Shown here piece by piece: positions 16,144 to 39,535 of a stretch of 64,000 nt of DNA. The translations under genes were made by a program, and so were the position numbers. The notes under the pieces are model-generated. The model worked only from the letters and a program-made list of their open reading frames with translations, did not search any database and was not told the origin of the DNA. This stretch comes from Spartinivicinus poritis (lineage in GTDB: Bacteria; Pseudomonadota; Gammaproteobacteria; Pseudomonadales; Zooshikellaceae), in contig NZ_JAPMOU010000004.1 in NCBI RefSeq assembly GCF_028858535.1, forward strand, positions 213,473 to 277,472. The letters run 5' to 3'. Position 1 is the stretch's first letter; every line of letters begins with the position of its first letter.

Positions 16144-16445
16144 AACCAAACCTTATATCAAGCTTTTATTAAGCTATTATCTTATAGAACCTGATTTAAA
16201 TGAATTTATTTCATTATATTTACCAACAACTATACATTCCTGCCTGATATCACTGCCTATCTGATAGAGATAACCAAGCAATAACTTCCATACCACGAGT
16301 TTACAATAAGCCTTGAGCCTCTATTACAGAGAGAATATAAACTGTCCGACAAAAAAATAGAGCCAATATAGGCTCCAAATGGTCGCAGAGGACAACAAGA
16401 GATTAAGAGAGGTTTATATGAACTATAGAAACTGCTCGAACTCTT

Positions 16446-19145
16446 CTAAACAATATTTCTTGGTACAAAGGAAAAGTTACGAAACTGACGTTTATAAGGT
16501 GACTCACTCATTTTTTTTACTCTGGCAACGCCCATCTTGTAGTTGTAATTGCCACTAATATTATCAACTACTCTGGCAGTTAGAGCATTGGTTGGCTGAC
16601 GCATATCTAACATATTGGAATACAGCACACCTTGCTTAATTGCAGGTGTTACCATTGCAATGGCTGTTACTGCTGCTTGCTCTAGTTCAATATGTCCCTT
16701 AGCTAACAGCTCAGAGAATTGAAATTGCCCCTCATAACTACCATGTAAAGTGTCTTTAAAACAGGGCACCCGATCAGAATATAAAATAACTCTGTCACCA
16801 GACTCAATACCTCTGGTTTTGGCATCAGCAGGGTGAATCTCTACCCAGTTTTCTGGCCAACGCTGCATGGTATAGGCTCTTCGCTGAGTATCATCAAAAC
16901 CTGACTGCCATATTTCATTTATTCGGCCATTGGTAAACCAAAGTTCATCTTCTTTAGGCTGTATCCATTGATGAAAATCTGAAAATAAACTCCAGGGGTG
17001 TTTCTGCAAGTTAACTTTTCCTGTGTGGGTATTAAATGCTAGTAATGTTTTAGGAATAATATTAGCGCCTTGAGGTCCATTTTCTAAGCCTTTTTCTGCA
17101 AGCTCCTCCAGCCCCATTTCTGTATCATGAAGTCGTTTGGTGCCTATCAATTTATTCGTTTTGTAGTTAAAAAATACCGGGGCTTGAATGCCTTCTGTAC
17201 CCATTTTTCTGAATTGTTCATGTAAAGTAGTACCTGCTTTTTTTGCAGCCACTTTGACCATATAAAAGTCTTTTCTAGACCCTCTGCTAAATCGTGCTGC
17301 TTCTTCTGCAACACTATTAGAATCTTTCCACTCAAAGCCATCATATCCCATTTTGCGAGCTAATTGGGCTATAATCCACCAGTCTGGTTTAGCGTCACCT
17401 GGTGGATCGTAAAATTTCTGATATAACCTTAACCGTCTTTCTCCATTAGCCCGCGTAAAGTTTTCTTCTCCCCAGGTAGCAGCAGGAAAAATAATATCAG
17501 CAAATCGAGCACCAATGGGATCTCGCATATAAATATCCTGGTTAAATACTACCATTCCTCCTGAGTCCACTCGGTTTTTAAGAGTGTTAATAATTTTCTC
17601 TTTTTCAAAGCTATTAACTTGATGAGGGTTACCTTGAGTTAGCTCACGAAACTTGCGGTATAAGCCTTGTGAGCCCGTCATCGCTTGAATCCAAGTGGTG
17701 CCTATGACATGAGCTAATCGAGTATGGCCTGATACCAGCCAACGATCGACATCCAAAGCCCTGCGTCGTCTACCGGGCAATTTTTCAGGCGATTTATTTC
17801 TCGGTAATTTACCTCCCCAAACACCACCCCGTTGATGACCACCAAAACGGCCAATCACTCTTCCAGATCGGCCACCCGCTCCACAAATGGTTGCCAGACT
17901 TGAAATTGCATTAGTATTGCCTGTGTTATTACTCCAATAAAAACCTTTTTCAATACCAAAAGAGGCTTTTACTCTAGAACCATCAGGATTAGGTTTTGCT
18001 AACATTGCTGCGGCCAAATATATTTTTTCAACATCAATACCAGCAATTTTTGCTGCATAACCTGGCTCATATTCTGGTTGCGAGAAATTCCATTGTTTAT
18101 AATCAGCAAAGCCTTTTGTTTGAAATTTTCCCCAGGTGGTTCGCCATTGCCATGGTGTATTACGTGTTCCTTGTCCAAATCCTGAGTTTGACTCCCATTT
18201 ATTATTTACCCATTGCTTAATCCACTCTGTATCTTCCCAGCCATTCTCCATGATAACTCTTGCGATAGCACCTAATACTAAAGTGTCAGTACCGGGATAT
18301 AAATCTATATGCAGGCCTCCCATTTTTTTCATATAAGCAATACCTGAAGTCTCTCTTGGGTTAAGAGCAATTGCTTTCATCCCTTTTTGAATCGCAGGCA
18401 TTATATACTGGGTAAATAAAATCGTTTTTGTTTCATAGGGATCAGTTCCACAAACCATTAATACATCAGCAGCCCCCCAATCTTCATAACTTGGCCCAAA
18501 ATTATCAAACCCAGCATCACGGAATCCTGGTGTTGATGTAACATCTGAAGGCGTATCATGGAAAGTAAAGTTGGCCGTATTTAGGTGACGTAAAGCATAC
18601 TTGGTGATTGCATAAGTATTTTCAATATACTGATAAGAATAAGTCTTAACACAATAAGCATTAGCTCCAAACTTATTTCTTACATAAACAGCAATTTCAC
18701 TTGCTACATCCATAACAAAATCCCAACTGACGGGCTGTAGCACACCACCAACACGTATTAATGGCTGTAATAAGCGATCTTTAGTTGCTGTTAGTGGATT
18801 GTAAACTTTCTGCGCTAATAGCCCGCCACGCATACTTGAATCACCCATTTTATTAACGACTTTTGTTTGTTTATCAGGAACGATGACTATATGGTGGGGC
18901 TCTCCCTTATGCATAATGACATTATATTGAGAAGGAGCAACCCAAGCTTGTAGTGGAAAACTAGGAAAATCAACCCCAAAAGCATTTTCACTTGCTTTCA
19001 TCCCTCCGCTTGGCTCTCTAACTGGCCACCGATAAACTTTAAACCCACAGGCAACCACACAGTAGTCACAAGCGGTTGTAATAACATCGGCAGTAGGAGG
19101 TGGTAAGGGGATATGATCTTCTGGGGGGAAAATATGTCTAACCAT
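16446..19145 (-). CDS. idrA: Molybdopterin oxidoreductase large subunit, iodate reductase IdrA-type (AioA-related)
   Basis: An 899-residue DMSO-reductase-family protein of the arsenite oxidase branch. C26, C29 and C33 (CDYCVVACG) with Ser in GDSSMRGG (101-108) in place of a fourth Cys give the 3Fe-4S site typical of AioA. As in AioA, the segment YIENTYAITK offers no Cys or Ser ligand to Mo. RFGGHQRG (433-440) keeps the Arg and His of the AioA pocket. The loop at 196-212, which supplies arsenite-contacting residues in AioA, reads quite differently. There is no signal peptide, so export probably depends on the Tat signal of the Rieske subunit, 5 nt upstream. The paired peroxidase genes make IdrA (iodate to iodide in the periplasm) the best call. 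True AioA is the alternative. Confidence 0.8.
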   Translation of the reverse strand: MVRHIFPPEDHIPLPPPTADVITTACDYCVVACGFKVYRWPVREPSGGMKASENAFGVDFPSFPLQAWVAPSQYNVIMHKGEPHHIVIVPDKQTKVVNKMGDSSMRGGLLAQKVYNPLTATKDRLLQPLIRVGGVLQPVSWDFVMDVASEIAVYVRNKFGANAYCVKTYSYQYIENTYAITKYALRHLNTANFTFHDTPSDVTSTPGFRDAGFDNFGPSYEDWGAADVLMVCGTDPYETKTILFTQYIMPAIQKGMKAIALNPRETSGIAYMKKMGGLHIDLYPGTDTLVLGAIARVIMENGWEDTEWIKQWVNNKWESNSGFGQGTRNTPWQWRTTWGKFQTKGFADYKQWNFSQPEYEPGYAAKIAGIDVEKIYLAAAMLAKPNPDGSRVKASFGIEKGFYWSNNTGNTNAISSLATICGAGGRSGRVIGRFGGHQRGGVWGGKLPRNKSPEKLPGRRRRALDVDRWLVSGHTRLAHVIGTTWIQAMTGSQGLYRKFRELTQGNPHQVNSFEKEKIINTLKNRVDSGGMVVFNQDIYMRDPIGARFADIIFPAATWGEENFTRANGERRLRLYQKFYDPPGDAKPDWWIIAQLARKMGYDGFEWKDSNSVAEEAARFSRGSRKDFYMVKVAAKKAGTTLHEQFRKMGTEGIQAPVFFNYKTNKLIGTKRLHDTEMGLEELAEKGLENGPQGANIIPKTLLAFNTHTGKVNLQKHPWSLFSDFHQWIQPKEDELWFTNGRINEIWQSGFDDTQRRAYTMQRWPENWVEIHPADAKTRGIESGDRVILYSDRVPCFKDTLHGSYEGQFQFSELLAKGHIELEQAAVTAIAMVTPAIKQGVLYSNMLDMRQPTNALTARVVDNISGNYNYKMGVARVKKMSESPYKRQFRNFSFVPRNIV

Positions 19146-19150
19146 TGTTT

Positions 19151-19738
19151 TTATCCTCTTGCCGTTGCTATTAAATTATTAGTGCGCCCAAATAGTAGTC
19201 CCATAACACCTGTTGCAATTACTTTGTCATTTTGGACTTCCAGCACAATCTGCGGCAAACTCTGATAAGCTTGCCCGGCAATTAAAATACCATGACGGGT
19301 TAAGTCAAATAGAGATAAATGAAATGGGCAAGGGCCTAATACTCGATGCTCATCGACAGCTTTATAAGTACCTTGCAATGGCCCTCCCTGATGACTGCAA
19401 TAATAACTAAATGCGACAATATCTTCATCAGGGCCAACCCCGCCGCCTGCTGGTACGCCTAATTTTACTAAAATAGCAGCTGTATTATTCCCATTATCAG
19501 GATAGTTAATATTAATTGGTTCATTGACTTTCAGCTCACTTAACTTACTCAGTTGCCTGTTTGGATATTTAACCATCTTAGCCGTTAGCGATTGTGCTTC
19601 ACCGGATTGGTTATATATTACTAACGGAACACAAGATGCTACCGCAGCCGTACTTGAGTTAAACAAAAATTGCCTACGACTTATTAAGCAAGAGGCATTC
19701 TTATCATCAGCATTATCATTAATTTCAAGTGACGTCAT
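19151..19738 (-). CDS. idrB: Rieske 2Fe-2S subunit with Tat signal, IdrB-type (AioB-related)
   Basis: A 195-residue Rieske protein. The N-terminus has the twin-arginine signal ISRRQFLFNSS (R21, R22) and a hydrophobic stretch to about residue 41. Cluster ligands are C114/H116 in CSHQGG and C137/H140 in CPFH. The two extra cysteines that form the usual Rieske disulfide are absent (Gly in box 1, Phe in box 2), which should lower the redox potential. The overall fold and pairing with the Mo subunit match AioB/IdrB. The ATG overlaps the stop of the upstream peroxidase gene in ATGA, so translation is coupled. Confidence 0.82.
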   Translation of the reverse strand: MTSLEINDNADDKNASCLISRRQFLFNSSTAAVASCVPLVIYNQSGEAQSLTAKMVKYPNRQLSKLSELKVNEPININYPDNGNNTAAILVKLGVPAGGGVGPDEDIVAFSYYCSHQGGPLQGTYKAVDEHRVLGPCPFHLSLFDLTRHGILIAGQAYQSLPQIVLEVQNDKVIATGVMGLLFGRTNNLIATARG

Positions 19739-20901
19739 TTTTTTGCCTCCATTAGCTCTTTTTTACTAAACAATTTTTGATAAGCAGGTAAATTGGGGCG
19801 CTCAATAGTAATTTTTTTTCCAGAAAATGCCTTCAAGAAAGATAACAGTTGCTTTTTTTCTTTTTTATTAAGACTTAATGGCTTAATTAATTTACTCTTT
19901 GTTGTTGGATAGGCTGTTGTTCGACCATCACTGGTAAAGCCACCTGCATCATAAAAATCAATAACATCTGTCAGACTAGCTAATTCGCCATTATGCATGT
20001 AAGGTGCGGTATAAAGTGTATAACGTAATGATGGTGTTCTAAACTTTCCTTTCATAGAAGGATGTTTGGTTCGAAAATAAGCTCCTGGATCTGCTTTAGT
20101 GTGTCGATATTGTTGCTCATCCATTCCTTTAGCATAAAGCTCATAACGCATAGTGATTTGTGCAAGAGGGTTTGTTTGCCACTCACTACTGGGAGGTACA
20201 CCAATATTATAATAAGCTTGATCAGATGCTAATGCACCGTTATGGCATTGAATACAGCCAGCTTTACCTTCAAATAACTTTTTCCCTGCAAGCTGTTCTG
20301 CTGTTAGTGCGTTTTTATCACCATTTAAAAAATGGTCCAAAGGAGTATCAGTTTGAATCAAAGTACGTTCAAATGCGGCAATTGCATTCCAGGCATTATT
20401 AATTTTAGGCCATTCATCACCAAATACTTTTTTAAACTGTTGGCGATACTCAGGAATCAGTGCCAATCTAGCTTCCATTAAATCATCTTCACCATTTCCC
20501 GCAACAGCTCCTTTAGCTGCAGACTTTGCTTGCGCCTCCAAAGATTTAGAGGCTCCGGCCCAAAACAATTTATCATAGTAGGCTGCATTGATTATCGTTT
20601 GAGCATTTCGCCAATGAATGGTACCAGGATAACCGAGTGATAGCTTGCCAGGCCAATCCCAGCCCATTTCTGGTACATGACAAGAAGCACAAGATGTTGA
20701 TCCATCACCACCTAGTCGACCATCAAAAAAAAGGAGTTTACCTAACGCTATTTTTGCTTCTGTCGTTTTATTATCCGGCGGTTCAGGTACTTTGCCTAAT
20801 GGAGCAAGCGGAGGAAACTGAGAAGCACTAGTTTTCTGGATCAAAGTCAATACTAAAACAACAATAAATAATCTAAAATATGCCTGCTTTAGTCTATTCA
20901 T
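19735..20901 (-). CDS. Di-haem cytochrome c peroxidase-like protein, IdrP-type
   Basis: About 388 residues with a signal peptide (hydrophobic near residues 10-24) and two c-type haem sites: CASCH (C73, C76, H77 counted from a TTG two codons earlier) and CIQCH (C218, C221, H222). This is the bacterial cytochrome c peroxidase/MauG layout. It also has the family stretches LGKLLFFDGRLGGDGSTSC and PYMHNGELASLTDVIDFY. In iodate-reducing bacteria two such proteins accompany IdrAB and are thought to handle peroxide or reactive iodine intermediates. I chose the ATG at 20901, with AGGGA 6-7 nt upstream. Which of the two genes is IdrP1 and which IdrP2 cannot be settled here. Confidence 0.83.
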   Translation of the reverse strand: MNRLKQAYFRLFIVVLVLTLIQKTSASQFPPLAPLGKVPEPPDNKTTEAKIALGKLLFFDGRLGGDGSTSCASCHVPEMGWDWPGKLSLGYPGTIHWRNAQTIINAAYYDKLFWAGASKSLEAQAKSAAKGAVAGNGEDDLMEARLALIPEYRQQFKKVFGDEWPKINNAWNAIAAFERTLIQTDTPLDHFLNGDKNALTAEQLAGKKLFEGKAGCIQCHNGALASDQAYYNIGVPPSSEWQTNPLAQITMRYELYAKGMDEQQYRHTKADPGAYFRTKHPSMKGKFRTPSLRYTLYTAPYMHNGELASLTDVIDFYDAGGFTSDGRTTAYPTTKSKLIKPLSLNKKEKKQLLSFLKAFSGKKITIERPNLPAYQKLFSKKELMEAKK

Positions 20902-20988
20902 TAGCAATCCCTGCCTCTTAAAATCCTACTATATAATGGCACACCTAATAGATAATAGAGTTTCCTTAATATCAGTGTAGAATAACTA

Positions 20989-22212
20989 TTAGTTTTCTTT
21001 ATCTTGCCATTTTTCAATTAAGTGATAACTATATTGATGCTCCTGATTAGTATATTTCTTAGCTATATCTACTGAAGACGATAATGACTTTAAAAAAGAG
21101 ACCAATGCCTTCTGCTCTACTTTTGTTAAGCCTAGCGGTTTAATTTTTTTATCAAGGTAACGATCTTTACCTCCACCTTTATTATAAAAAGATACCACCT
21201 CATCTAATGTGTTAAAAATACCATTATGCATATAAGGTGCGGTATAGTTTAATTCTCTAAGACTTGGAGTAATAAACTTTCCCCTATCACTACCATCTGC
21301 TTTATGGGTTAATACACCTGCCCCTATATCTCGTTTAAGTGACATATAATCTGATACCCCCATAAACATATTAAAAGCTATAAAGGTCTGATGACTTAAA
21401 GGGTCAAGAAATACAGATAAATTTTCTGGCACACCTGTATTATGAGGAAGCTCATCTGTATATAAGTGCCCACTGTGACATTGGCTACAACCAGCCTTGC
21501 CAAAGAATAGTTGTTTACCTTGTCTTGCTTGTTTATTTAATTTATTTAGATCATAGTTATTCTTTGTAGACTTAAGCACTGCCAAGAAAGCAGGTATTGC
21601 TTTTCTTACTCCACTATTACTTGGTTCTCCTAAGCCAGCTTTAGCAAAAAGTGCTACATAATTTAAGTCTTGCTTAAGCCGCTCTTGCATTAAGCGCATA
21701 TCCATATTCATGATATAATCTTCTGTTAGCATTTCCCTCACTACATCATTTAAATTGGTAGCAATTCTTCCATCATGCAACCAGCGAGTTTTGAGTGCGG
21801 TATTAATTAAGCTTGGGGCATTGCGAAAGTGCTTATTACCAGGATAACCTGGCGATAATGCTGTTCTGTGAGTAAAACCATATTGTGGCTGATGACAATC
21901 ACTACAGGCTATACTACTATCACCTGACAACCTTTTATCAAAAAATAGTCTTTTTCCTAATTCGATCAATGCATTACTAGCACTATCACCGTTCTGAGTA
22001 ACGTCAGAGACCTTAGCAACTGTCTTATTCAGAACTTCTGCACTAGAAAAACTACTGTTTATAAAGCACACAAACAATAAGGTCAATAAGGGGATATTTA
22101 CCTTCAACTGCACTAACCTGCATATTAAGTTGTTGATAAAACAACCAATAAGTATAACTATGTTTATGTTATATTTTTTAACTCGTACGATAAGGTTCAT
22201 GATTAGTGACAT
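20989..22212 (-). CDS. Second di-haem cytochrome c peroxidase-like protein, IdrP-type
   Basis: A 407-residue protein with two CXXCH sites, CSDCH (C103, C106, H107) and CSQCH (C242, C245, H246). It has the same conserved blocks as the following gene: LGKRLFFDKRLSGDSS, FRNAPSLINTA and PYMHNGIFNTLDEVVSFY. The N-terminus holds two hydrophobic stretches (about 18-30 and 40-57); the second looks like the signal peptide, so translation may really begin downstream of 22212. It is the first gene of the operon in transcription order and ends 87 nt before the next. It is diverged from that gene, so this is an old pair rather than a recent copy. Confidence 0.8.
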   Translation of the reverse strand: MSLIMNLIVRVKKYNINIVILIGCFINNLICRLVQLKVNIPLLTLLFVCFINSSFSSAEVLNKTVAKVSDVTQNGDSASNALIELGKRLFFDKRLSGDSSIACSDCHQPQYGFTHRTALSPGYPGNKHFRNAPSLINTALKTRWLHDGRIATNLNDVVREMLTEDYIMNMDMRLMQERLKQDLNYVALFAKAGLGEPSNSGVRKAIPAFLAVLKSTKNNYDLNKLNKQARQGKQLFFGKAGCSQCHSGHLYTDELPHNTGVPENLSVFLDPLSHQTFIAFNMFMGVSDYMSLKRDIGAGVLTHKADGSDRGKFITPSLRELNYTAPYMHNGIFNTLDEVVSFYNKGGGKDRYLDKKIKPLGLTKVEQKALVSFLKSLSSSVDIAKKYTNQEHQYSYHLIEKWQDKEN

Positions 22213-22542
22213 CCTTGTCTTCGCATGATCTAAAGCTTAGCGTTTTATTTAATACCGCAGTTAATCAAGTTTCACTATGGCTACTTTATTCACAGCAATA
22301 TCTACACCAGGCATCAAATTTAATAACTCACTGTAATTATTGTAGTTTTTGTATATTAGCAAATAGAGTTAACACACAAAACGTTAAATACATCAATTTA
22401 GTTTCAACAAATCGTCCAACATTTTTTTTCGCTTTACCCATTCATAAATTATTCATTCACTAGACTTATAACTGTTTAACGGCTTTCACTTTAAAACCTT
22501 TGTAAAGTTTCATATATTTAAGAGTAGACTCGCTGGCTTAAA
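22213..22542. other. Divergent promoter region of the idr-type operon
   Basis: About 330 nt of AT-rich DNA between the first peroxidase gene (minus) and an exported-protein gene (plus). It should carry the operon promoter. I see no convincing FNR dyad, sigma-54 motif or long inverted repeat. An open frame at 22206-22463 starts from GTG without a ribosome site and I do not call it. Confidence 0.4.
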
Positions 22543-23838: not shown

Positions 23839-24615
23839 CTATACGAATGACGTTTGACTAGCTGAATAAAGAGGTGTATTCACTATGTCTGTAGTGCTAG
23901 AAGAGCGGTTTGCAGCAAAGCTGTCCTTTTCAAGCTCTTCCAATCTGACCAGTTTGACAGGCTTCTGCACTGTTGCCGTTAGTATTTCAGTAAATGTGTC
24001 ATTGATAAAACCAGCTTTGTCTTTGTTTGTAATAATAAAGCGTAAATCGCCTTTTGCCGTTACAGCACAGAAACAAACTGCTGACATGTCACTTGCATTA
24101 TCAAGCACAACTTGCTGATTTGTTACAAAGTATAAAACTTCCTTACTCTTTTTCGCATCTAACTTAAGAAGAGCAATTTTTTCACTAAGATATTCATTTG
24201 CAGAAAAATCATAGCTTTCTTTGCTATAAATACCCAGTTTTGCTAGTAAACGGCTAACCCCAGTTTTACTAATTTTCACATGAAATTCTTGCTCAATGAT
24301 TTGCTTAAATGAATCTCTATCCCATAGTACTTTTTCAATACCAAATTCTGTTGGCTTTTTCTCTAGCAACAATATTAGCTGCTTCAAATGTTCCTCAGTC
24401 AGTTTAGGAGGACGCCCGGTAATTGGCTTTGCTTTCAAGCCCTCTTCGCCATGCATTTTATACTGAGACAGCCAGTCATAAATACATGAACGATGAAAGC
24501 CTATTGACTTAATGACCAACTCTGGACTTTCTCCTGCATGAACTCGTTTCACTGCAGCAACTCTGATTTTTTCTAACTCTTCATGAGACAGCTTTCTACC
24601 ATCAATCTTAGTCAT
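23839..24615 (-). CDS. IS630-family transposase derivative lacking catalytic residues
   Basis: About 258 residues from the ATG at 24615 (a longer frame to 24651 is less likely). The N-terminal half is a normal IS630 DNA-binding region: HTH with FHRSCIYDWLSQYKMHGEEG and GRPPKLTEE, then a winged helix with PTEFGIEKVLWDRDSFKQII and ISKTGVSRLLAKLGI. The C-terminal DDE domain is badly altered. The first catalytic block (normally F-x-D-E) reads YFVTNQ, about 40 residues are missing, and no second Asp or Glu block is seen. The frame is nevertheless unbroken. It may be a decayed transposase or one kept as a DNA-binding protein. I found no convincing terminal inverted repeats. Confidence 0.75.
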   Translation of the reverse strand: MTKIDGRKLSHEELEKIRVAAVKRVHAGESPELVIKSIGFHRSCIYDWLSQYKMHGEEGLKAKPITGRPPKLTEEHLKQLILLLEKKPTEFGIEKVLWDRDSFKQIIEQEFHVKISKTGVSRLLAKLGIYSKESYDFSANEYLSEKIALLKLDAKKSKEVLYFVTNQQVVLDNASDMSAVCFCAVTAKGDLRFIITNKDKAGFINDTFTEILTATVQKPVKLVRLEELEKDSFAANRSSSTTDIVNTPLYSASQTSFV

Positions 24616-26137
24616 ATTTACAACGCACCCATGGTTATTACCATATAACAAACTTATAATCGAAAGGCTGTTTTTATAGTTAATGAAGAGGATTAGTATT
24701 ATCTATTAAGCAGCTATAGCTTGCTTTTTATACCAAATTCTTAATTTGTTGTTTTCAACCAACTTTCTGCAACTGCTATCTACAACTGCGATGTATAGTT
24801 GATCACAATCAAATCACTTCATGTTATTCCTCTTAATTGCCTACCATCGATTACTACCTTCCTAGAAAGTTCCATAAGAATTCCTAGATTTTTTTTAACT
24901 TCCTGTACAAAATTCCCTGTTTCTCCCCTCATCAATAAACCTTTAAACATAAAACTATACTGGCCTATTGTACTGATTCGTTTTCTGAAGAAGCATGTCT
25001 ATCACTTATAGTATCTTCTCAATGTAATATGACATGCTTAATCAATATAAACTTTCAACCTGAATGAATTTTCTGTAATTTTCTATAAAAGCTTAATTTA
25101 TACTTCTAAAATCTTTTTCTGCATCAAAAAACTCTGAATACGAAGTATAAGACGCTTTGTTCTACACTGAGCATTTAGTAGACAAAACGATCAACAAAAT
25201 ACTAATATTGACGTGTTTTTGCCTGATAAAGCCATATCTATAGACTTCCAGAAGACCAAGCAGCCAAAAATCGTTCAAGATTAGAGCGAACGCAAAAGCA
25301 GCTTTTTAGTTTTAACTTTATGCTCTGGAAAGCTGTAGTATTTTTTTAGCTAAGCTTCCTAACACTTTTTTCAATGCGAGGGGCATCAAAACCTTTAAAA
25401 CCAAGTCTTTTACTTGATTCATTAAAGACATTGACTAGATGTTCAGTTTGAGTTGCCGATCACACTGTCAATGAAAATATTTTTCAGCCCAGGTATATGT
25501 AATAACCGAAGTCGCTTATGGGTAAATACGCTTCAATATATACCTTACAATAGAGTTACTATTTGTTACTCCATTATGTCTTGCTTTTTTGGATAAAAAC
25601 CACCTAAAAAAAACTATTGGGCTGATAAATAAAACTTATAGAATAACCACTCACTAGAAAGTTTATCGTATCTTTATTGAGTCTCTTTTTGAAGCCAAAA
25701 TGAGTCTTAAATATCACTCTTGGCTCAACTTTTTACGCCATGTTTTAACACTTAACGCCAAACGTACCATTATAATGCTGCTTTATGTAAAAAATGCTGA
25801 TGCTGATAGTTACATATCGCTACCTGTTTGTAGCAAATACTGATATGTCATTGAAGATAGAGCTTTTTTCTTTTTGCTGGGCCAGCCACCCTGGCTTACA
25901 CAATTTACTTCAATATGGGGGCAATTAGGAAAGCTTCTCTAAATAACCTAGTAAAATGATCGGATAAAGCGAAATACACTGGCTGTAGCCACTTCTAAAC
26001 ATGTTGTATCTGCTCACTCTTTATACACTGCAGCTTTTACCAACAAGCCTAGAGCTTCCTGCATCCATATAGCCACTCATATGTGGCAGAATCTTACTCT
26101 CATGAAAAATAACTATTATTAAAGAAGCCCTTTTGTT
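24616..26137. other. 1.5 kb without an intact gene, probably decayed DNA
   Basis: This is the longest gene-free stretch in the window. All six frames are broken at short intervals. Short open runs, such as about 60 codons on the plus strand from 25653 (...KMSLKYHSWLNFLRHVL...) and about 60 on the minus strand ending near 24830 (...EVKKNLGILMELSRKVVI...), lack start signals. They look like remnants rather than genes. Together with the neighbouring defective transposase it reads as an old insertion site that is eroding. Confidence 0.5.
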
Positions 26138-26663: not shown

Positions 26664-28028
26664 CTAGCTTTGTTCACGAAGCGTATTTAAACCATATCGC
26701 TCCATTTTCTTTAGCAACCCTTGTCTTGATAGTTTTAGTTTTTGTGCTGCGTGCGTTCTATTGCCATTACTTTGCTCAAGTGCCACTGTAATCAAACGAA
26801 TCTCTAATTGCTTCACTTGTTGCTCCAAAGATTCATCATTTAACTCTACTGGCACTACTTCATTACCAGTAAACAAAAAGCTAATCTCATCCATCGTTAC
26901 CTGCTGCCCTTGAGCGATTGCAGCTAAACTTTCGATAGTATTTTTTAACTCTCGAACATTTCCTTGCCATTGATTATTAGTCAACCATGCTAACGCATCT
27001 GCTTGGATAGTAATCGCTGTTCGATTTTTAACATTATATCGCAGTAAAAAGTGTTGAATAAGGGAAGGTATATCCTGTTTCCGTTGCTGCAAACTTAACG
27101 TTTGAATTGTTATACCCTTAATTCGATAAAATAGGTCATCACGAAAATTCCCAGCTGCTACAGCCCCAAGCAAGTCGCGGTTGGTCGCACTGACAATACG
27201 AATATTCACTTTAACCAGGTCTCTTCCCCCTACAGGATAAAAACTTCCTTCCTGCAATACCCTTAGTAACTTAACTTGCATTGCGCTAGGCATTTCACCT
27301 ATTTCATCTAAAAATAAAGTGCCATTATCCGCTAACGCTATTAACCCAACTCGATCTTTATCTGCCCCTGTGAATGCCCCTTTCTTATAGCCAAACAGCT
27401 CACTTTCTAGTAAGTCGGCAGGGATCGCACCACAGTGAACAGAAATAAACGGCTGATTTTTTCGACTACTATGTTGATGAATGGCTTTTGCAATAATTTC
27501 CTTTCCAGTACCTGACGGGCCGGTAATCAGCACTGGCACATCAGTAGGTGCTATCCGGGTAATTAATTGCCTGGTAGATTGAATATTTTCGCTAACACCT
27601 ACCAATCCCATATCATCATCTTGTACCAGCTGTTGACGTAACTGGCTTAACTGCAGCTCTAATTCATGTTTAACGAGAGCACGTTTTACAACAATAGCCA
27701 GCATATCTGGATCAATAGGTTTAGCCAAAAAATCCCATGCTCCATTTTTGATAGCCGTTAAAGCAAGGTCTCTATCAGCATGACCTGTCATGACAATAAC
27801 AGGTGCTTCACACTCAGGGATCAACTGCAACCCTTCCTCTGGAGTAAAAGAAGGAGGTAAGGCAAGATCAAGCAATATTAAACCTATTGTTTGCTTTGCT
27901 AAAACTTGCCTAGCCTGCTCAGTATCTGATGCGACAGATACTGTATAACCTTGTTGCACAAGCCAAAGCTTGCACAGCTCACAAAATGCAGGTTCATCGT
28001 CAATCACTAATATATGTTCATCATTCAT
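26664..28028 (-). CDS. Sigma-54-dependent response regulator (NtrC family)
   Basis: About 454 residues: receiver domain with acidic pair in [10 protein letters not shown] and phospho-acceptor Asp in [10 protein letters not shown] (D58 of the longest frame), then an AAA+ domain with Walker A GPSGTGKE, the sigma-54 contact GAFTGAD and [10 protein letters not shown] (Walker B), and a C-terminal Fis-type HTH ([20 protein letters not shown]). It would activate RpoN promoters when phosphorylated by the histidine kinase encoded 24 nt upstream. The ATG at 28028 is preferred over an in-frame TTG at 28040. Targets are unknown; no clear site is seen in its own promoter. Confidence 0.9.
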
Positions 28029-28052
28029 TTTATTGCTCAATTTGAGGCAACC

Positions 28053-33442: not shown

Positions 33443-33828
33443 AGACTAAAAACCAAACAATTTCAATAGCAACCAACAAAAAAGAATTAAAAGCAGCACC
33501 TCAAAGCTAACAAGCGTAGCATTTCAAAAATACTTTTTATATTTTGCTATCTTCATTCTTAAAAAATATGGATGAAAGTTAATATATGAAATATTTAACA
33601 ATAACTCCACTCATCTATTACTTATAGGCTTATATGGTCATCATCAGTTGATGATCATGCCTCAAATTAGGTATAGCCATAACCGTTGATTACTCTTGAC
33701 AGTTGATTACTAGCACACCACAGCGAAATTTAAGCTAAAATTATTCTAAACACTCACCCAAAAAAGCAGGGTGATAGCTTTACAAGAGTTGAATGGAAAC
33801 ACAACTCAAGTTTGCATGGAGCGCAAAG
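33443..33828. other. Intergenic region between DUF4166 gene and sensor gene
   Basis: About 385 nt. A small perfect hairpin (ATCATCA/TGATGAT, 33640-33655) stands in an AT-rich background, and a promoter for the downstream sensory cluster is expected here. GGAG at 33815-33821 serves the ATG at 33829. Confidence 0.4.
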
Positions 33829-34869
33829 ATGAAGAAAAAAAAGCATACACAGAAGCCAAGCTTTACAAAATTATTAGCAATAATATTTTGTTCACATCTT
33901 ATAGTTGCTGCTGTCATTATTACAATAAGTAACAACCTTCTTAGCAAGAAAACTCCTAAAAAAAATGATACTTCCAGTGATTTTTCTTACGTAAAAGTTG
34001 CACTTTCAGATCGTATAAATAATATAAAACAAGATATACGTATCATTTCAAGCCTTATTCAAAGCACTACCAGCAATCCTCATATTGAAAAAGAGAATTC
34101 GGTTATCAAACTATTTGAATCAATGATTGAAACCAGAAAGTACTATGACCAAATCAGACTATTAAACTCAAAAGGGAAAGAAATATTACGTCTAAATAAA
34201 AGTGGTGATGGTGCTATCAAAGTAACTGATGACAAACTACAAGATAAGTCAAACCGCTATTATTTTACAGATATTTACTCAAGTCCTCCCGATAAGTTTT
34301 ATATATCAAAACTAGACTGGAACATTGAAGCAGACTCTGTAGAACTACCTTTAAAAGCAACAATACGTATCGGTATACCAATAAAGCTTGATCTTACTTC
34401 CAGTAGTCAGGGTGTATTACTGATAAACTATTTAGCTGCTGGTCTAGTTGGCAGTTTAAACAACACTGTAGCAGGAGAAGAATACTTAGTGATCAGCCAA
34501 GATGGTGTCACTGCTTTTGATCCAGATGCAGCCAACTTATTAGATTCTGACCACCTCTTCAATCAGAAACATCCTGATCTATGGAGTGTCATGCAAGAAA
34601 ATACGAAAGGTACTTTTAAGGGTGCTAGTCATAGTTATCAATATGAAAAAGTTTCATTTGGCAATATAAACAACAAGTCTTATTCAACTATTTGGCTGGT
34701 AAAGAAGGCAAAGGTAGCACCAATTGTAGAGTCATCTAACTCAACTACTTTATTATATTTTTCAGCGCTAGCACTATCATTTACCTTTGCTGTACTAGTT
34801 GCCCTAATATTTAATGTCAAAAGGAGAGGAGCTGATAATCTATCTGATCAAAGCGCCGTTACTGCCTAA
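33829..34869 (+). CDS. Kinase-less double-Cache sensor protein, paralogue of the neighbouring kinase
   Basis: About 346 residues: a basic N-terminus, a membrane helix, a periplasmic Cache-type domain of about 265 residues, a second membrane helix (TLLYFSALALSFTFAVLVALI) and only a 20-residue cytoplasmic tail. The periplasmic part shares KLQDKSNRYYF, LDWN and PLKATIRI in the same order with the histidine kinase encoded 0.7 kb downstream, so it is a duplicate of that sensor without a kinase. It may act as a co-receptor or ligand trap. I chose the ATG at 33829, with GGAG 7 nt upstream, over an ATG 12 codons earlier. Confidence 0.75.
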   Translation: MKKKKHTQKPSFTKLLAIIFCSHLIVAAVIITISNNLLSKKTPKKNDTSSDFSYVKVALSDRINNIKQDIRIISSLIQSTTSNPHIEKENSVIKLFESMIETRKYYDQIRLLNSKGKEILRLNKSGDGAIKVTDDKLQDKSNRYYFTDIYSSPPDKFYISKLDWNIEADSVELPLKATIRIGIPIKLDLTSSSQGVLLINYLAAGLVGSLNNTVAGEEYLVISQDGVTAFDPDAANLLDSDHLFNQKHPDLWSVMQENTKGTFKGASHSYQYEKVSFGNINNKSYSTIWLVKKAKVAPIVESSNSTTLLYFSALALSFTFAVLVALIFNVKRRGADNLSDQSAVTA

Positions 34870-34917: not shown

Positions 34918-35556
34918 ATGATAAAATTACCTGTTATTGCATTAGCTTTATTATATATTCAATCAACAAGTGCTAATAACGAGCAGTTTAACGACTTATT
35001 AAAAAGCAAACTTTCTGACCCTACTGCTTTAGAAAAGTCGTTAAGCTCAGCCAAAGATAAAGTATTTATATGCACTTATTGTCATGGAATTGATGGCAAT
35101 AGTCAAAAAGAATATATACCCAACCTTGCTTCACAAAACCCTGAATATACTATTACCCAACTTATAAACTACTCACTAAATAAACGAAAAAGTCTAACAA
35201 TGAACAAAATATCAGCTGAGCTATCATTAGAAGACAAGGTTGATATTGCTATATATTACTCAAAATCAGATATAAGAAACAAGCATAAAAAAGAATCATC
35301 ATTAAGCAGCCGGGGAGAAAAAATATTTAACACCGCATGCTTTATTTGTCATGGAAAAAATGCCAAAGGTAATAAAAACATACCCTCACTAGCTAAACAA
35401 AATGAAAAATATATTAAAGACACCCTATTAGAGTTTAAAAACAATAAAAACTATAGGCCCGAGTCTCCTATGTTCGAAATTGCAGCCAAATTATCACGTA
35501 ATGATATACAATCTATCGCTGCTTATATATCACGTATATCTGATGAAGACAGTTAG
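34918..35556 (+). CDS. Di-haem cytochrome c (c4-like)
   Basis: A 212-residue periplasmic protein with a signal peptide (residues 1-19) and two haem-binding sites, CTYCH (C52, C55, H56) and CFICH (C141, C144, H145). Each heads a domain of about 90 residues, the c4 layout. It is Lys-rich and more diverged than typical c4 (SQKEYIPNLASQNPEY in place of PNLAGQ). It lies between two paralogous sensor genes with gaps of 48 and 29 nt, so it is probably part of their operon. It might report the redox state of the periplasm to them or pass electrons to a bd or Mo enzyme. Confidence 0.85.
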   Translation: MIKLPVIALALLYIQSTSANNEQFNDLLKSKLSDPTALEKSLSSAKDKVFICTYCHGIDGNSQKEYIPNLASQNPEYTITQLINYSLNKRKSLTMNKISAELSLEDKVDIAIYYSKSDIRNKHKKESSLSSRGEKIFNTACFICHGKNAKGNKNIPSLAKQNEKYIKDTLLEFKNNKNYRPESPMFEIAAKLSRNDIQSIAAYISRISDEDS

Positions 35557-35585: not shown

Positions 35586-38177
35586 ATGGCAATTCAGCAT
35601 TCACAGTATCAGTCCAACTATATAAAGCTGCTCTTTATATATTTTATTCCAGGTTTCATAGCTATTTTAACAATAGCTATTATTCACTGCTATTTTTTAG
35701 TATATCAAAACAGATCCGCGCTTGAGGCTAACGAGCAAAATAAAATTTTGCATGCAAAATACCTGATAAAAGAAAGAATCAGCTTAATGATTAATGATGT
35801 TGAATTAATCACCTCTTACATAAATGATCATAAACTTAAAAAAATAACATCTAGATCAGCCACTTCAATTAAAAATCGTATTGTTAATTTTGTCAGCAGG
35901 CTAATCAAAACAAGACAATTCTACGACCAGGTTCGCTTTATAAGCAGTGACGGCAGGGAGCTAATCAGGATAAATAACAAACAAAGCTCACCTATCATTG
36001 TCGAAGAAAAAAAACTACAAGATAAAAGTAACAGATACTATTTTAAAGCAGTAAAATATATAAGTAAGGACTCTGTTTATATCTCACCATTAGACTGGAA
36101 TATGGAAGGAGGCAAACTGGAATACCCTTTAAAAGCTACAATTCGTATTGTTAAGCCTATTTACCAAAACTCTCAGTTTATGGGAGCCGTTGCTATCAAT
36201 TATCATGCACACAGCCTCATCAACCAGTTATATGGTAAAGCCACTTACTCACAAAACCACAGTAAAGTTTTTTTAATAAACAATTCAGGCTACTCTGCCA
36301 TATCCCCAATATCGCTAACTGCTCCCCCAACAGATAAGTCTAATCAGTCAAAACTGATACAAACAAAAGCTTATTTCAACCAGGAAAAGCCAAAGCTATG
36401 GCAAACTATGCTTAAAAAAAATTCAGGCCACTACTACAGTGAAAATACCCTATATACCTACAGTCAGATTAATCCTCCACTATTTAAACAGCATCAAGTT
36501 CCACCTTTATGGATAGTTTCAAGCACTATAAAAATGAGCTACGCCCAACTATGGTACTTAATTCCTCTATATACCGTTATCGGCATACTTGTTTTCTTTG
36601 CTTCTTCTCTTTTTGCCTATTTTCACCAGAAAAACAGACAAATTCAAACCTTACATCAATATGCAGAAAGCTATCGCCAGGTTCTAAAAAAAATTCAACT
36701 GGCTGCAATTACTCTCAACCAAAATGGAGACATTGAGTTTTGTAATGATTTCTTCTTATCTTTGACTAAGTTCAATAAAGATCAATTAGTTAATAAACCG
36801 TTTATGAAAATTTGCATACCTGAAAAACTACGCCATCAATTACAAAATAAAATTAACCAAGCTTTTTTTCAGCAGCAAAGTTTTCGTCATTATACAACCT
36901 TACTAAAGTGTAGTGATGATTCAGTAAAAATTGTTAACTTAACTATTACCTACAGCCCAGCTCTAACTCACCATACTCATTCAGTAACATTAGTAGGTGA
37001 AGATATAACTGCCCAAGTAATTAATGAAGATCAGCTACTAAGATTGAGTCATGTCGTAGATCAAAGTTCTTTTGGTGTAATATTAACAGACCCAAAGGGT
37101 GTCGTTGTTTACGCTAATGATACATATATCAACATGATTAAAGAACCAATAACAGATATTCTTAATCAACCAGCTCAACTATTTAATTCTGAGCTTGATC
37201 CAAATTTAAAAGAAACTATTTTTCATAGCTTACATGAAAACCAACACTGGACAGGAGAAGTCAAATTAGACAAAAAGCACTCAGCTCAATCCCAATGGGT
37301 TCGGCTAGCCATTTCAACAATTAAAGAACAAGATCAAGTACTATATATTTCAGTTCTACTACAAGATATTAATGAAGAAAAAAGGCTTGCCAAGCAAGTA
37401 CAACAAGAGAGTCAAAAAAGACAAACCAGTGAAAAATTAGCCGCGATTGGTCAAGCATCTACAACAATTGCTCATGATTTACGAAACCCACTTTGCTCCA
37501 TTAAGATGGCATTGCAAATGAGCCAGCACCACTATGTTAAACAAGAAAATAAAGCTAACGAGTTATTTTCGATTGCTCTTGAGCAAATAAGTTACATGGA
37601 AAAAACCTTAGATGATTTATTATCATTTAGTAGACCTGAAAAACTTACCCCTGAATGGACCTCAATAAAGCAAATAATTGAAAGTACCCTTTCTTGCCAG
37701 AGCAAACTAATAAAAGAAAGCCATGCTACTATTTCATTAAATATTGAGAGTAACTCACCACATATTTTTGCAGATGCAACCAAGCTTCGTCGTATTTTAC
37801 AAAATTTACTTGTCAATGCTATCCAAGCGACTTATATACTACCAACAACCAAACGAAATGTTACTATCACAGCAACCAAAGAAGTTAATAACTCTAATCA
37901 TTTTTTACAAATAGTAATCGAAAATAATGGTGAAACCATCAGAGAAGCAGACCTTAACAAAGTTTTTCAGCCATTTTATACAACTAAAAATAAAGGCACA
38001 GGGCTTGGCCTAGCTATCGTGAACCAATTAACATTACAACACCAAGGTTCAATAACGCTTGAGCCTATACAGCCCCTAGGTACTCGAGCAATACTATACT
38101 TACCAATCGATTATACACGAGTAAATAAACAGTTTAGCACCTATGAATTACCTGAAGCGATAGCAATCGAACAATGA
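35586..38177 (+). CDS. Cache-PAS-PAS sensor histidine kinase
   Basis: An 863-residue kinase: membrane helix (14-40), periplasmic Cache region (45-315) with KLQDKSNRYYF at 143-153, second helix (323-346), two PAS domains (about 360-475 and 485-600), HisKA with H630 in TTIAHDLRNPL, and a HATPase with QNLLVNAIQA and KGTGLGLAIV. This is an NtrB-like C-terminus. The last codons overlap the regulator start by 4 nt (ATGA), so the two are translationally coupled. The sensory domain is duplicated as a stand-alone protein two genes upstream. The ligand is unknown. Confidence 0.9.
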   Translation: MAIQHSQYQSNYIKLLFIYFIPGFIAILTIAIIHCYFLVYQNRSALEANEQNKILHAKYLIKERISLMINDVELITSYINDHKLKKITSRSATSIKNRIVNFVSRLIKTRQFYDQVRFISSDGRELIRINNKQSSPIIVEEKKLQDKSNRYYFKAVKYISKDSVYISPLDWNMEGGKLEYPLKATIRIVKPIYQNSQFMGAVAINYHAHSLINQLYGKATYSQNHSKVFLINNSGYSAISPISLTAPPTDKSNQSKLIQTKAYFNQEKPKLWQTMLKKNSGHYYSENTLYTYSQINPPLFKQHQVPPLWIVSSTIKMSYAQLWYLIPLYTVIGILVFFASSLFAYFHQKNRQIQTLHQYAESYRQVLKKIQLAAITLNQNGDIEFCNDFFLSLTKFNKDQLVNKPFMKICIPEKLRHQLQNKINQAFFQQQSFRHYTTLLKCSDDSVKIVNLTITYSPALTHHTHSVTLVGEDITAQVINEDQLLRLSHVVDQSSFGVILTDPKGVVVYANDTYINMIKEPITDILNQPAQLFNSELDPNLKETIFHSLHENQHWTGEVKLDKKHSAQSQWVRLAISTIKEQDQVLYISVLLQDINEEKRLAKQVQQESQKRQTSEKLAAIGQASTTIAHDLRNPLCSIKMALQMSQHHYVKQENKANELFSIALEQISYMEKTLDDLLSFSRPEKLTPEWTSIKQIIESTLSCQSKLIKESHATISLNIESNSPHIFADATKLRRILQNLLVNAIQATYILPTTKRNVTITATKEVNNSNHFLQIVIENNGETIREADLNKVFQPFYTTKNKGTGLGLAIVNQLTLQHQGSITLEPIQPLGTRAILYLPIDYTRVNKQFSTYELPEAIAIEQ

Positions 38178-39535
38178 CGCACCTTCTTATTGTTGATGAT
38201 GACCTAGCCATCCGCCGCACCTTGGAACTGCATTTAAGTCAACATTACCAAACAACCCTAGCAGGTAATGTGGAAGAAGCTTTATCAATCGCAAATGTAC
38301 CAGATGTTATTTTACTTGATATTTGCATGCCCGGCATTAATGGTTTAGAGGCTATTCCTAAGTTCAAACTTCAATGGAGTAACTGCCGAATTATTATAAT
38401 GACTGCTTTTCATGATATGCAAAGCACTATTGTTGCGATGCAAAGAGGAGCAGACGAATATATTTACAAACCTATAGATATATTTGAGTTAGATAGAGCC
38501 ATTCAGCAAGCTATTAATTATCAAAAGTCTTGCATTGATAAAAACCTAGTAATTCCAACTGTTATTCAACCAACTATTGTTGGTTCCAGTCCATCTATGC
38601 GTAAAATCTTTAAAACAATCGGTAAAGTTGCTAATACTTGTGCAACAATCATGATTACAGGAGAAAGTGGTACAGGAAAAGAAATGGTAGCAAAAACCAT
38701 TCATCATGCTAGTGATCGACATAATAAGCCTTTTATAGCAATAAATTGTGCTGCATTAGTTGACAGTTTATTAGAAGCTGAGCTTTTTGGTTATAAAAAA
38801 GGGGCTTTTACTGGTGCAGTTGCTGATCAAGCAGGAAAATTTCAATTAGCCCATAATGGCACATTATTTCTTGATGAAATTGGGGAGCTATCTCCTATTA
38901 TTCAAGCAAAGTTGTTACGTGTTTTACAAGAACAACAAGTAAACCCTTTAGGCTCCCAAGACTCTATTAGCATCAATTCTCGTATTATTAATGCAACTAA
39001 TGCGGACTTAGAACATGCTATTGAGAAAAAGCAATTTCGAAAAGACCTTTACTATCGGCTACAGGTTGTAAACATTCACCTCCCCCCTCTTCGCCAACGC
39101 AAATCAGATTTACCAGAATTAGTTAGCTTTTTACTCTCCAAAGCAAGCAAAATGCTAGGCCGTCAAGTGAACAAAGTTGCTGTGGGAGTAATGGATAAGC
39201 TTTATCAATATGATTGGCCAGGAAACATTCGCGAGCTTGAAAACACACTTACCAAGGCAGCAGCTTTATGTTGTGGAGAAATCATTACTCTTGCAGACTT
39301 ACCCGATAACATTGCCCAACACCCCACTAAGCTAAATATGACTCCCAACAGAGATACACAAGCTGAGTCAAATAAGCAAGCAATATATAGCTTAAAAGAA
39401 ATGGAAAAAAAACATGTAGCCAAAGTACTACACTATACTAATTGGCATAAAGGGCATGCATGTGAAATTTTAGGAATTTCTCGTCCTCGCTTACAACGGC
39501 TAATTGCTCAATTTAATTTAGTAAAAAGTGAATAA
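38174..39535 (+). CDS. Sigma-54-dependent response regulator (NtrC family)
   Basis: A 453-residue regulator: receiver with VDDD and D49 in VILLDICMPG, AAA+ domain with Walker A GESGTGKE, GAFTGAV sigma-54 contact and [11 protein letters not shown], and a Fis-type HTH at the end (HKGHACEILGISRPRLQRLI). It is the partner of the kinase that overlaps its start by 4 nt. It is the second RpoN activator within 12 kb. It is not a recent copy of the first, since the linkers and HTH differ. Confidence 0.92.
   Translation: MTHLLIVDDDLAIRRTLELHLSQHYQTTLAGNVEEALSIANVPDVILLDICMPGINGLEAIPKFKLQWSNCRIIIMTAFHDMQSTIVAMQRGADEYIYKPIDIFELDRAIQQAINYQKSCIDKNLVIPTVIQPTIVGSSPSMRKIFKTIGKVANTCATIMITGESGTGKEMVAKTIHHASDRHNKPFIAINCAALVDSLLEAELFGYKKGAFTGAVADQAGKFQLAHNGTLFLDEIGELSPIIQAKLLRVLQEQQVNPLGSQDSISINSRIINATNADLEHAIEKKQFRKDLYYRLQVVNIHLPPLRQRKSDLPELVSFLLSKASKMLGRQVNKVAVGVMDKLYQYDWPGNIRELENTLTKAAALCCGEIITLADLPDNIAQHPTKLNMTPNRDTQAESNKQAIYSLKEMEKKHVAKVLHYTNWHKGHACEILGISRPRLQRLIAQFNLVKSE

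Follow-up and report, generated by a model that had tools for sequence, protein, structure and literature searches.

The question raised by the locus described here is which enzyme it encodes. In the stretch of 64,000 nucleotides of Spartinivicinus poritis that was analysed (contig NZ_JAPMOU010000004.1, hereafter the window), four open reading frames (ORFs) occupy positions 16446-22212 of the minus strand, and their products combine the two subunits of an enzyme resembling arsenite oxidase (AioBA) with two di-haem proteins. The best explanation as a whole, and one that we consider likely, is that Spartinivicinus carries here an iodate reductase operon of the idrABP1P2 type, working by the mechanism outlined below. 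Both enzyme subunits score above the arsenite oxidase cut-offs of NCBIfam (IdrA, 390.9 bits for TIGR02693, cut-off 359.05; IdrB, 126.9 bits for TIGR02694, cut-off 95.65), the two families being named as 'arsenate reductase (azurin)' subunits. Mis-annotation as arsenite oxidase is therefore expected, as the initial annotation of this stretch had foreseen, and the Azonexus idr operon in PLSDB is indeed annotated as arsenite oxidase subunits.

Identity of the large subunit and of the operon

The genes are transcribed in the order idrP2-idrP1-idrB-idrA, with a gap of 81 bp between P2 and P1, an overlap of 4 bp between P1 and B and a gap of 5 bp between B and A. The tight same-strand spacing and the leading position of the peroxidase-like genes, both claimed at the outset, were recovered from the ORFs, as were the Rieske protein with a twin-arginine translocation (Tat) signal and the 3Fe-4S molybdenum subunit. 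IdrB carries the Tat motif SRRQFL and a Rieske motif CXHX20CX2H, and the IdrA motif is C26-X2-C29-X3-C33-X70-S104. The exact CX2CX3CX70S motif was also published for Azoarcus DN11 (PMC10149662). IdrP1 and IdrP2 both match Pfam CCP_MauG (E 1e-43 and 3.7e-33), and the start of idrP1 may well be the ATG at 20901 instead of the TTG at 20907.

The large subunit was placed in a tree of 57 sequences, computed by a quick IQ-TREE run with the Shimodaira-Hasegawa-like approximate likelihood ratio test (SH-aLRT) as the only support, without bootstrap. Second copies of the same gene, the own-genome paralogue L011/L012 and rows shorter than 750 amino acids (aa), namely L007 with its broken frames, L032/L078, L092, L095 and L096, were omitted (L and G numbers denote loci and genomes). 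The tree splits 47 IdrA-like rows, the window included, from 10 AioA-side rows, among them the NT-26, Thermus HB8 and Acidiphilium plasmid sequences, at an SH-aLRT of 100. Long branches (L099, L059 and L098) and odd compositions (L060 and L061) were flagged by the tree program. The large subunit thus groups with IdrA and not with AioA; a grouping inside AioA, named initially as the outcome that would contradict the claim, is not observed among the 57 rows. Identity of the window IdrA to the AioA-side rows is 27-31%, and 72-75% to Vibrio THAF190c, Enterovibrio and Alginatibacterium. The last three fall with the window, Motiliproteus and many rows of f260, a family of the same phylum, in a clade of 37 rows called the marine clade after its members. 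A separate clade of 7 rows contains Azonexus and Thiothrix, whose idr genes are surrounded by a sigma-54 regulator with a kinase-like ATP-binding protein, a c-type cytochrome and moaA. The surroundings of idr in DN11 and SCT resemble these (PMC10149662), and Azonexus was used as a proxy for the tested enzymes because of this similarity in gene context. Window and Azonexus proteins are 48% (A), 51% (B), 55% (P1) and 47% (P2) identical.

In the AioA of A. faecalis, waters presumed to indicate where arsenite binds are held by residues H195, E203, R419 and H423 (PMC3758308). These correspond to H199, E207, R447 and H451 in NT-26, a step made by motif and spacing, and to H196, S204, R433 and H437 in the window. 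Both His residues and the Arg are invariant across the 57 rows, so that the window retains three of the four residues of the AioA set, the Glu being replaced by Ser204. At the position of NT-26 Glu207, Glu is present in 10/10 AioA-side rows and Asp in 7/7 proxy-clade rows, while the marine clade shows Ser in 36 of its 37 rows and Ala in the remaining one; Ser is also found in two intermediate rows (L056 and L057) and Asp in L059. The acid lost from the pocket of the window clade is therefore the one kept by AioA and by the proxy of the tested Idr enzymes. NT-26 Glu453, part of a GGHQE motif in 10/10 AioA-side rows, is replaced by Arg (GGHQR) in 46 of the 47 IdrA-side rows and by Cys in one, and position 198 changes from Lys in the proxy clade to Thr in the marine clade. 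The alignment of the pocket segments with both groups, which had been suggested as a check, thus places the window on the IdrA side at both Glu positions. Judging from the alignment, loss or shortening of the acid together with the gain of an Arg would fit iodate or a similar anion better than uncharged arsenite, and the site may be tuned differently in the two Idr clades.

The gene neighbourhood was checked in 35 IdrA-side loci, the window included. The order P2-P1-B-A is found in 30 of them, four (L005, L022, L048 and L071) cover no more than 264 bases before A and are uninformative, and one (L059) holds B-A only, without P1 or P2 across 9,430 upstream bases; L007 and L079, which lie outside the tree, were classed by identity. 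The order is therefore shared by 30/31 informative loci, and since 29/30 show it when the window is set aside, the gene set is not a matter of chance. P genes accompany none of the 10 AioA-side loci, one of which (L076) covers only 879 bases upstream. In the window, idrP1 and idrP2 lie beside idrBA, which is the published neighbourhood criterion for idr (PMC8692401). Tree, pocket and neighbourhood thus agree on an idr operon in place of arsenite oxidase, as was initially proposed. The exceptional B-A pair of L059 (L059:7550-11035) diverges first within the Idr part of the tree (support 82), with a long branch, and is a possible intermediate between Aio and Idr.

Residues of the two di-haem partners

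The initial annotation called both P proteins di-haem peroxidases. The two CXXCH motifs of each and the CCP_MauG matches uphold the di-haem part of this description; the peroxidase role has become doubtful, the catalytic Glu and the axial Met being absent. In order to compare these residues, an alignment was made of 29 rows each for IdrP1 and IdrP2 and of fragments of chains of known structure, one row below 300 aa having been dropped from each set. At the position of Met297 of 3hq6, which we take to be its axial haem ligand, a Tyr is found in 29/29 IdrP1 and 29/29 IdrP2 rows. All rows of both proteins also carry Tyr at the distal His position. The catalytic Glu (VEMN of 3hq6) is replaced by Ala in 29/29 IdrP1 rows, and IdrP2 has Ile, Leu, Thr, Val, Ser or Ala there. 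IdrP1 retains the distal Gln in 29/29 rows, for which IdrP2 has Val, Leu or Met. The Trp between the haems is likewise invariant in IdrP1 (29/29), and the 29 rows of IdrP2 are divided between His (21) and Trp (8). The same pattern holds in the proxy clade.

The Trp-Gln-Pro-Glu-Met spacing of 3hq6 is that of Trp98, Gln108, Pro112, Glu118 and Met119 in the Neisseria enzyme, in which the Glu and the Gln are both needed, single variants being inactive; a Glu of MauG has been proposed to act likewise (PMC10094543). As an axial ligand, Tyr is described as a trait of MauG, and Met or His as a trait of the cytochrome c peroxidases (CCP) (PMC7567364). The distal Glu and Gln pair of the bacterial CCP is incomplete in IdrP1, which has only the Gln, and absent from IdrP2, with neither in 29/29 rows. 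By alignment, the Met/His axial ligand is missing from both proteins and the Tyr ligand of MauG is present, in an alignment that contained no MauG sequence. The NCBIfam cut-offs are not reached for MbnH (362.85; P1 210.1 and P2 163.5 bits) nor for MauG (443.85; P1 190 and P2 158.9 bits). The best PDB match of either protein is 6e1c, a 'Di-heme enzyme' that is presumably MbnH.

As the ligand residues are MauG-like and the catalytic Glu is missing, classical removal of H2O2 appears doubtful, and so, from the aligned residues, does the label 'peroxidase' for IdrP1 and IdrP2. According to the published view, the P proteins serve to detoxify H2O2 (PMC8692401), their function being still unclear according to PMC11445184. 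Two points weigh against our view of these residues. In the 6e1c chain, too, Ala stands in the Glu column; its distal His column has Ser and is less certain on account of a five-residue insert beside it. Moreover, other acids, for example Glu164 of IdrP2 (30/30), could take over. AlphaFold models were too poor to help with these residues (mean predicted local distance difference test scores of 56.3 for IdrP1 and 45.9 for IdrP2). A more far-reaching proposal, which we advance only tentatively and regard as less probable than its opposite, is that IdrP1 and IdrP2 are MauG/MbnH-like subunits acting directly in iodate reduction and that the pocket of the window clade is distinct in lacking the acid; the direct role might, for example, be the conversion of hypoiodous acid to iodide or an electron relay. 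No mention of the residue pattern was found in those parts of the idr literature that were covered.

Regulation, decay and spread

The features of the locus are collected in the table. A sensor kinase and a sigma-54 response regulator encoded on the opposite strand are the probable idr pair. The regulator is 58%, 55% and 51% identical to the idr-linked regulators of L001, L008 and both L056 and L057, respectively, whereas the values for other sigma-54 regulators are 34-42% within the three Spartinivicinus genomes and 31-40% across the loci, save for one piece of 229 residues in L001 at 48%. The kinase has the same domain types as those of L001, L008, L044 and L056, with 29-32% identity. Another kinase and sigma-54 regulator pair at 26664-29942 was rejected as the idr pair: its kinase matches over 221-257 residues at 28-34% and its regulator at 34-38%, the best NCBIfam match of the latter being a PEP-CTERM type, below the cut-off.

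Table. Features of the idr locus and of the probable regulatory region in the window
Feature	Coordinates	Strand	Description
idrA	16446..19145	-	molybdenum catalytic subunit, 899 aa, 3Fe-4S motif CX2CX3CX70S
idrB	19151..19738	-	Rieske 2Fe-2S subunit, 195 aa, Tat signal SRRQFL
idrP1	19735..20907	-	di-haem CCP/MauG-superfamily protein, 390 aa, two CXXCH
idrP2	20989..22212	-	second di-haem CCP/MauG-superfamily protein, 407 aa, two CXXCH
Intrinsic-terminator-like hairpin with T run, after idrA	16358..16377	-	consensus match only
Sigma-54-like promoter GG-N10-GC	22294..22310	-	far end 98 bases before idrP2; consensus match only
Stand-alone sensor-domain protein	33793..34869	+	sensor type of the kinase (PF21623); perhaps part of the sensor system
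c-type cytochrome between sensor genes	34918..35556	+	
Probable idr sensor histidine kinase	35586..38177	+	HK_sensor_dom_bact, PAS, HisKA, HATPase_c; 32% full-length identity to the Enterovibrio L001 kinase near idr
Probable idr sigma-54 response regulator	38174..39535	+	58% identical to the L001 idr-linked regulator

The sigma-54-like site upstream of idrP2 has a shuffle fraction of 0.023 in the window, and sites of like form are present in the aligned upstream regions of genome G001 and of S. ruber. The G001 site lies just inside the longest reading frame, the real start of which is therefore probably later. When 29 related loci were scanned, L007 being left out, a shuffle fraction of at most 0.05 was obtained in 9, and the best site was located 60-150 bases before P2 in 14; L020 has no site and many loci are at chance. 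The binomial values for these sites are too optimistic because the loci are not independent, the 60-150 range was picked once the result was known and only blocks of two bases were moved in the shuffles. A pattern search allowing up to two mismatches missed the 22294-22310 site, with a count at chance, and a stricter search found none there. The site is a candidate with moderate support. The hairpin after idrA is weak by itself, since 7 terminator-like hairpins were found in the region and 8.9 are expected in shuffles.

Decay of the system is apparent in the close relative S. ruber (L043:8672-9702 and L112:7700-13400), the idrA of which is split after about codon 117 by an IS1595 element of 1,031 bases with 8-base target duplications. 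A second copy of the element, 98% identical, lies inside the kinase gene, an insert containing an ORF of 433 aa interrupts the stand-alone sensor gene, and the reading frame of the cytochrome gene is broken. No orthologue of the regulator was found in the S. ruber genome, where the best-scoring match is 38% identical as against 90% in G001; the neighbouring cydA and cydB remain (92% and 85%). As operon and regulator were lost jointly, these data support the view that they work together. All four frames are intact in both the window and G001, with identities of 96% (A), 90% (B), 90% (P1) and 85% (P2), and this intact/broken pair of close relatives amounts to a natural knockout in which S. ruber can serve as a natural negative control for the clade. 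Frames are broken in two of the 30 P2-P1-B-A loci, S. ruber (L043) and L007. The latter (L007:3113-9046), from a metagenome-assembled genome of Candidatus Thiodiazotropha, has split P2, P1 and A frames through assembly error or decay. In genome G1192 (L118 and L119), an idrA like that of the window (64-66% identity) is interrupted by a stop and a broken frame, and two other genomes of its genus contain an idrA 48% identical to that of the window.

Matches to the window protein were found in 5/56 relatives (E up to 1e-50, own genome counted), in 18/369 genomes of the class and 8/398 of the phylum (both at E up to 1e-40, own genome and AioA-like matches counted) and in 19/394 genomes of the family of G735 (E up to 1e-150). 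Iodate reduction genes have been reported in 145 genomes, Vibrio and Moritella among them, and the published IdrA tree already contains these two genera; the custom IdrA hidden Markov model used there has a threshold of 640 (PMC8692401). As far as was seen, Spartinivicinus is a new carrier genus of a known system; the word 'iodate' is absent from the main text of the S. ruber paper (PMC7484904), no wider search having been made on that point. In the window itself, neither a tRNA nor an Rfam match at gathering scores was found and no sharp GC break crosses the operon. No relative was confirmed in viral_contigs by a search reaching close relatives only. A MobA-like cofactor protein is present just below its cut-off (151.6 against 151.85 bits).

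A number of side observations concern the surroundings of idr. Genome G005 has two complete idr operons (L044 and L045), the IdrA proteins of which are 74% and 60% identical to that of the window. A proxy-clade operon is carried by an Azonexus plasmid (L021:17287-26658) near TnsA-like and TnsD-family genes and IS21, and this plasmid is a possible vehicle of transfer. In the 35 loci (e.g. L002:99-6104), idrP2 has near it a cytochrome bd subunit I-like protein in 8, a multi-haem cytochrome c with an ethylbenzene-dehydrogenase-type domain in 10 and SCO1/SenC in 4; the three are perhaps a dedicated electron module from quinol to Idr. A search for the multi-haem cytochrome at E 1e-10 in the own genome and two further genomes of Spartinivicinus found no match. 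A HEAT-repeat protein of about 760 aa is encoded near idr in 9/35 loci (e.g. L001:4480-6762) and adjoins kinase and regulator in L001 and L008. Upstream of the window operon, positions 23839-24651 encode a protein whose helix-turn-helix matches IS630 transposases below the cut-off, and relatives of it are found near idr in G001 and S. ruber.

Function, alternative readings and known systems

The proposed mechanism can be briefly summarized as follows. The sensor kinase and sigma-54 regulator (35586-39535) would probably activate transcription from a sigma-54 promoter near 22300. IdrB is predicted to carry IdrA to the periplasm by the Tat route, the motif being seen in the window and the transport belonging to the published model, and IdrP1 and IdrP2 would be its periplasmic di-haem partners. 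The substrate inferred from sequence is iodate, which would probably be an electron sink of the cell at low oxygen. Several points weigh against this account. The tree is without the sequence of any assayed IdrA, Azonexus being a proxy by gene context only, and, if judged by this proxy, the window IdrA would lie outside the clade of the confirmed iodate respirers (48% identity, separate 37-row clade). All the iodate respirers confirmed by the time of PMC8801600 are stated there to form one small clade, and marine and proxy clades differ at 29 nearly fixed positions, including Ser204 and Thr198 of the pocket. The regulator pair is located 13-17 kb from the operon and not adjacent to it, with a kinase match of only 32%. 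Finally, the loss of the idr system is tolerated by S. ruber.

That the locus encodes an arsenite oxidase beside unrelated peroxidase genes would agree with the NCBIfam equivalogs for AioA and AioB and with the three pocket residues kept. The window IdrA nevertheless falls outside all 10 AioA-side rows at full support and at 27-31% identity, neither the pocket Glu nor that of GGHQE is retained, and P1 and P2 accompany 30/31 informative IdrA-side loci and 0/10 AioA-side loci. This explanation is extremely improbable, and an arsenite oxidase identity is rejected on the tree, the pocket and the neighbourhood. A different substrate for the window's clade, such as another halogen or metalloid oxyanion handled with the idr architecture kept, is unlikely. 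It draws on the change of the pocket acid from Asp in 7/7 proxy-clade rows to Ser in 36 and Ala in one of the 37 marine-clade rows, on the Lys to Thr change at 198 and on the small clade of confirmed respirers (PMC8801600). It has to be set against the shared operon, the Asp197 and Arg439 signatures and the cofactor motifs, as well as the occurrence of iodate and iodide in seawater at 0.4-0.5 uM and the reduction of iodate by three marine Alphaproteobacteria with idr, whichever clade they belong to (PMC11445184). In this last context, IdrA of R. azorensis has a mass of 99.4 kDa and SecA of 99.9 (PMC11445184). Genome G633 agrees in IdrA (99.4) but not in SecA (99.4) and was rejected as the source of an assayed enzyme; complete IdrA proteins of family f260, perhaps Rhodobacteraceae, have masses of 99.7-100.1 in the marine clade (13 rows) and 99.2-99.4 in the proxy clade (3 rows), which is a weak hint only.

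It is very unlikely that the operon is a silent, horizontally acquired remnant devoid of physiological use. The IS insertion and regulator decay of S. ruber and the broken frames of the G1192 and Thiodiazotropha copies would be in line with such a fate; the four frames intact in the window and G001, at the identities given above, and the regulator intact in G001 at 90% speak against it. The iodate reductase reading is preferred. The Idr family and system were already known and the identification in a new genus is sound, by which Spartinivicinus joins the genera that carry genes for iodate reduction. What is new and worthwhile lies in the residues of IdrP1 and IdrP2, which do not fit a peroxidase, in a pocket specific to the clade, in a regulator encoded away from the operon and in the knockout that nature provides in S. 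ruber. The residue pattern makes the function of the P proteins, called unclear in PMC11445184, directly testable. Iodate reduction affects the supply of iodide in seawater and thereby atmospheric iodine and ozone loss (PMC11445184).

The closest known systems are the idrABP1P2 clusters of Pseudomonas sp. SCT, Denitromonas sp. IR-12, Aromatoleum TC-10 and Azoarcus DN11. They share with the window the peroxidase-like genes placed before idrBA, the Tat signal on the Rieske subunit IdrB, the 3Fe-4S IdrA, an IdrP1 and an IdrP2 that each have two CXXCH motifs and are about 37% identical to each other, and a sigma-54 two-component regulator. The window differs by an IdrA about 48% identical to the proxy, by Ser in place of the pocket Asp, by scanned adjacent ORFs that include neither moaA nor a cytochrome c gene and by a regulator 13-17 kb away. 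The Idr clusters of marine Gammaproteobacteria (Vibrio THAF190c, Enterovibrio and Alginatibacterium) belong to the same clade and have the same operon, the window departing from them in sequence divergence and in its non-adjacent regulator. AioBA has in common with the window the molybdoenzyme family, the 3Fe-4S and Rieske motifs, the B-A pair and three of four pocket residues, but it is only 27-31% identical, retains the pocket charge changed in the window and is without P1 and P2 genes. MauG and MbnH resemble IdrP1 and IdrP2 in the Tyr axial ligand of the C-terminal haem, by alignment, and differ in that the scores fall below their cut-offs and the Glu said to be needed by MauG is replaced. 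The DmsEFAB-MtrCAB system of Shewanella is extracellular and consists of another gene set; like Idr, it combines a molybdenum reductase and haem proteins acting on iodate (PMC9732548).

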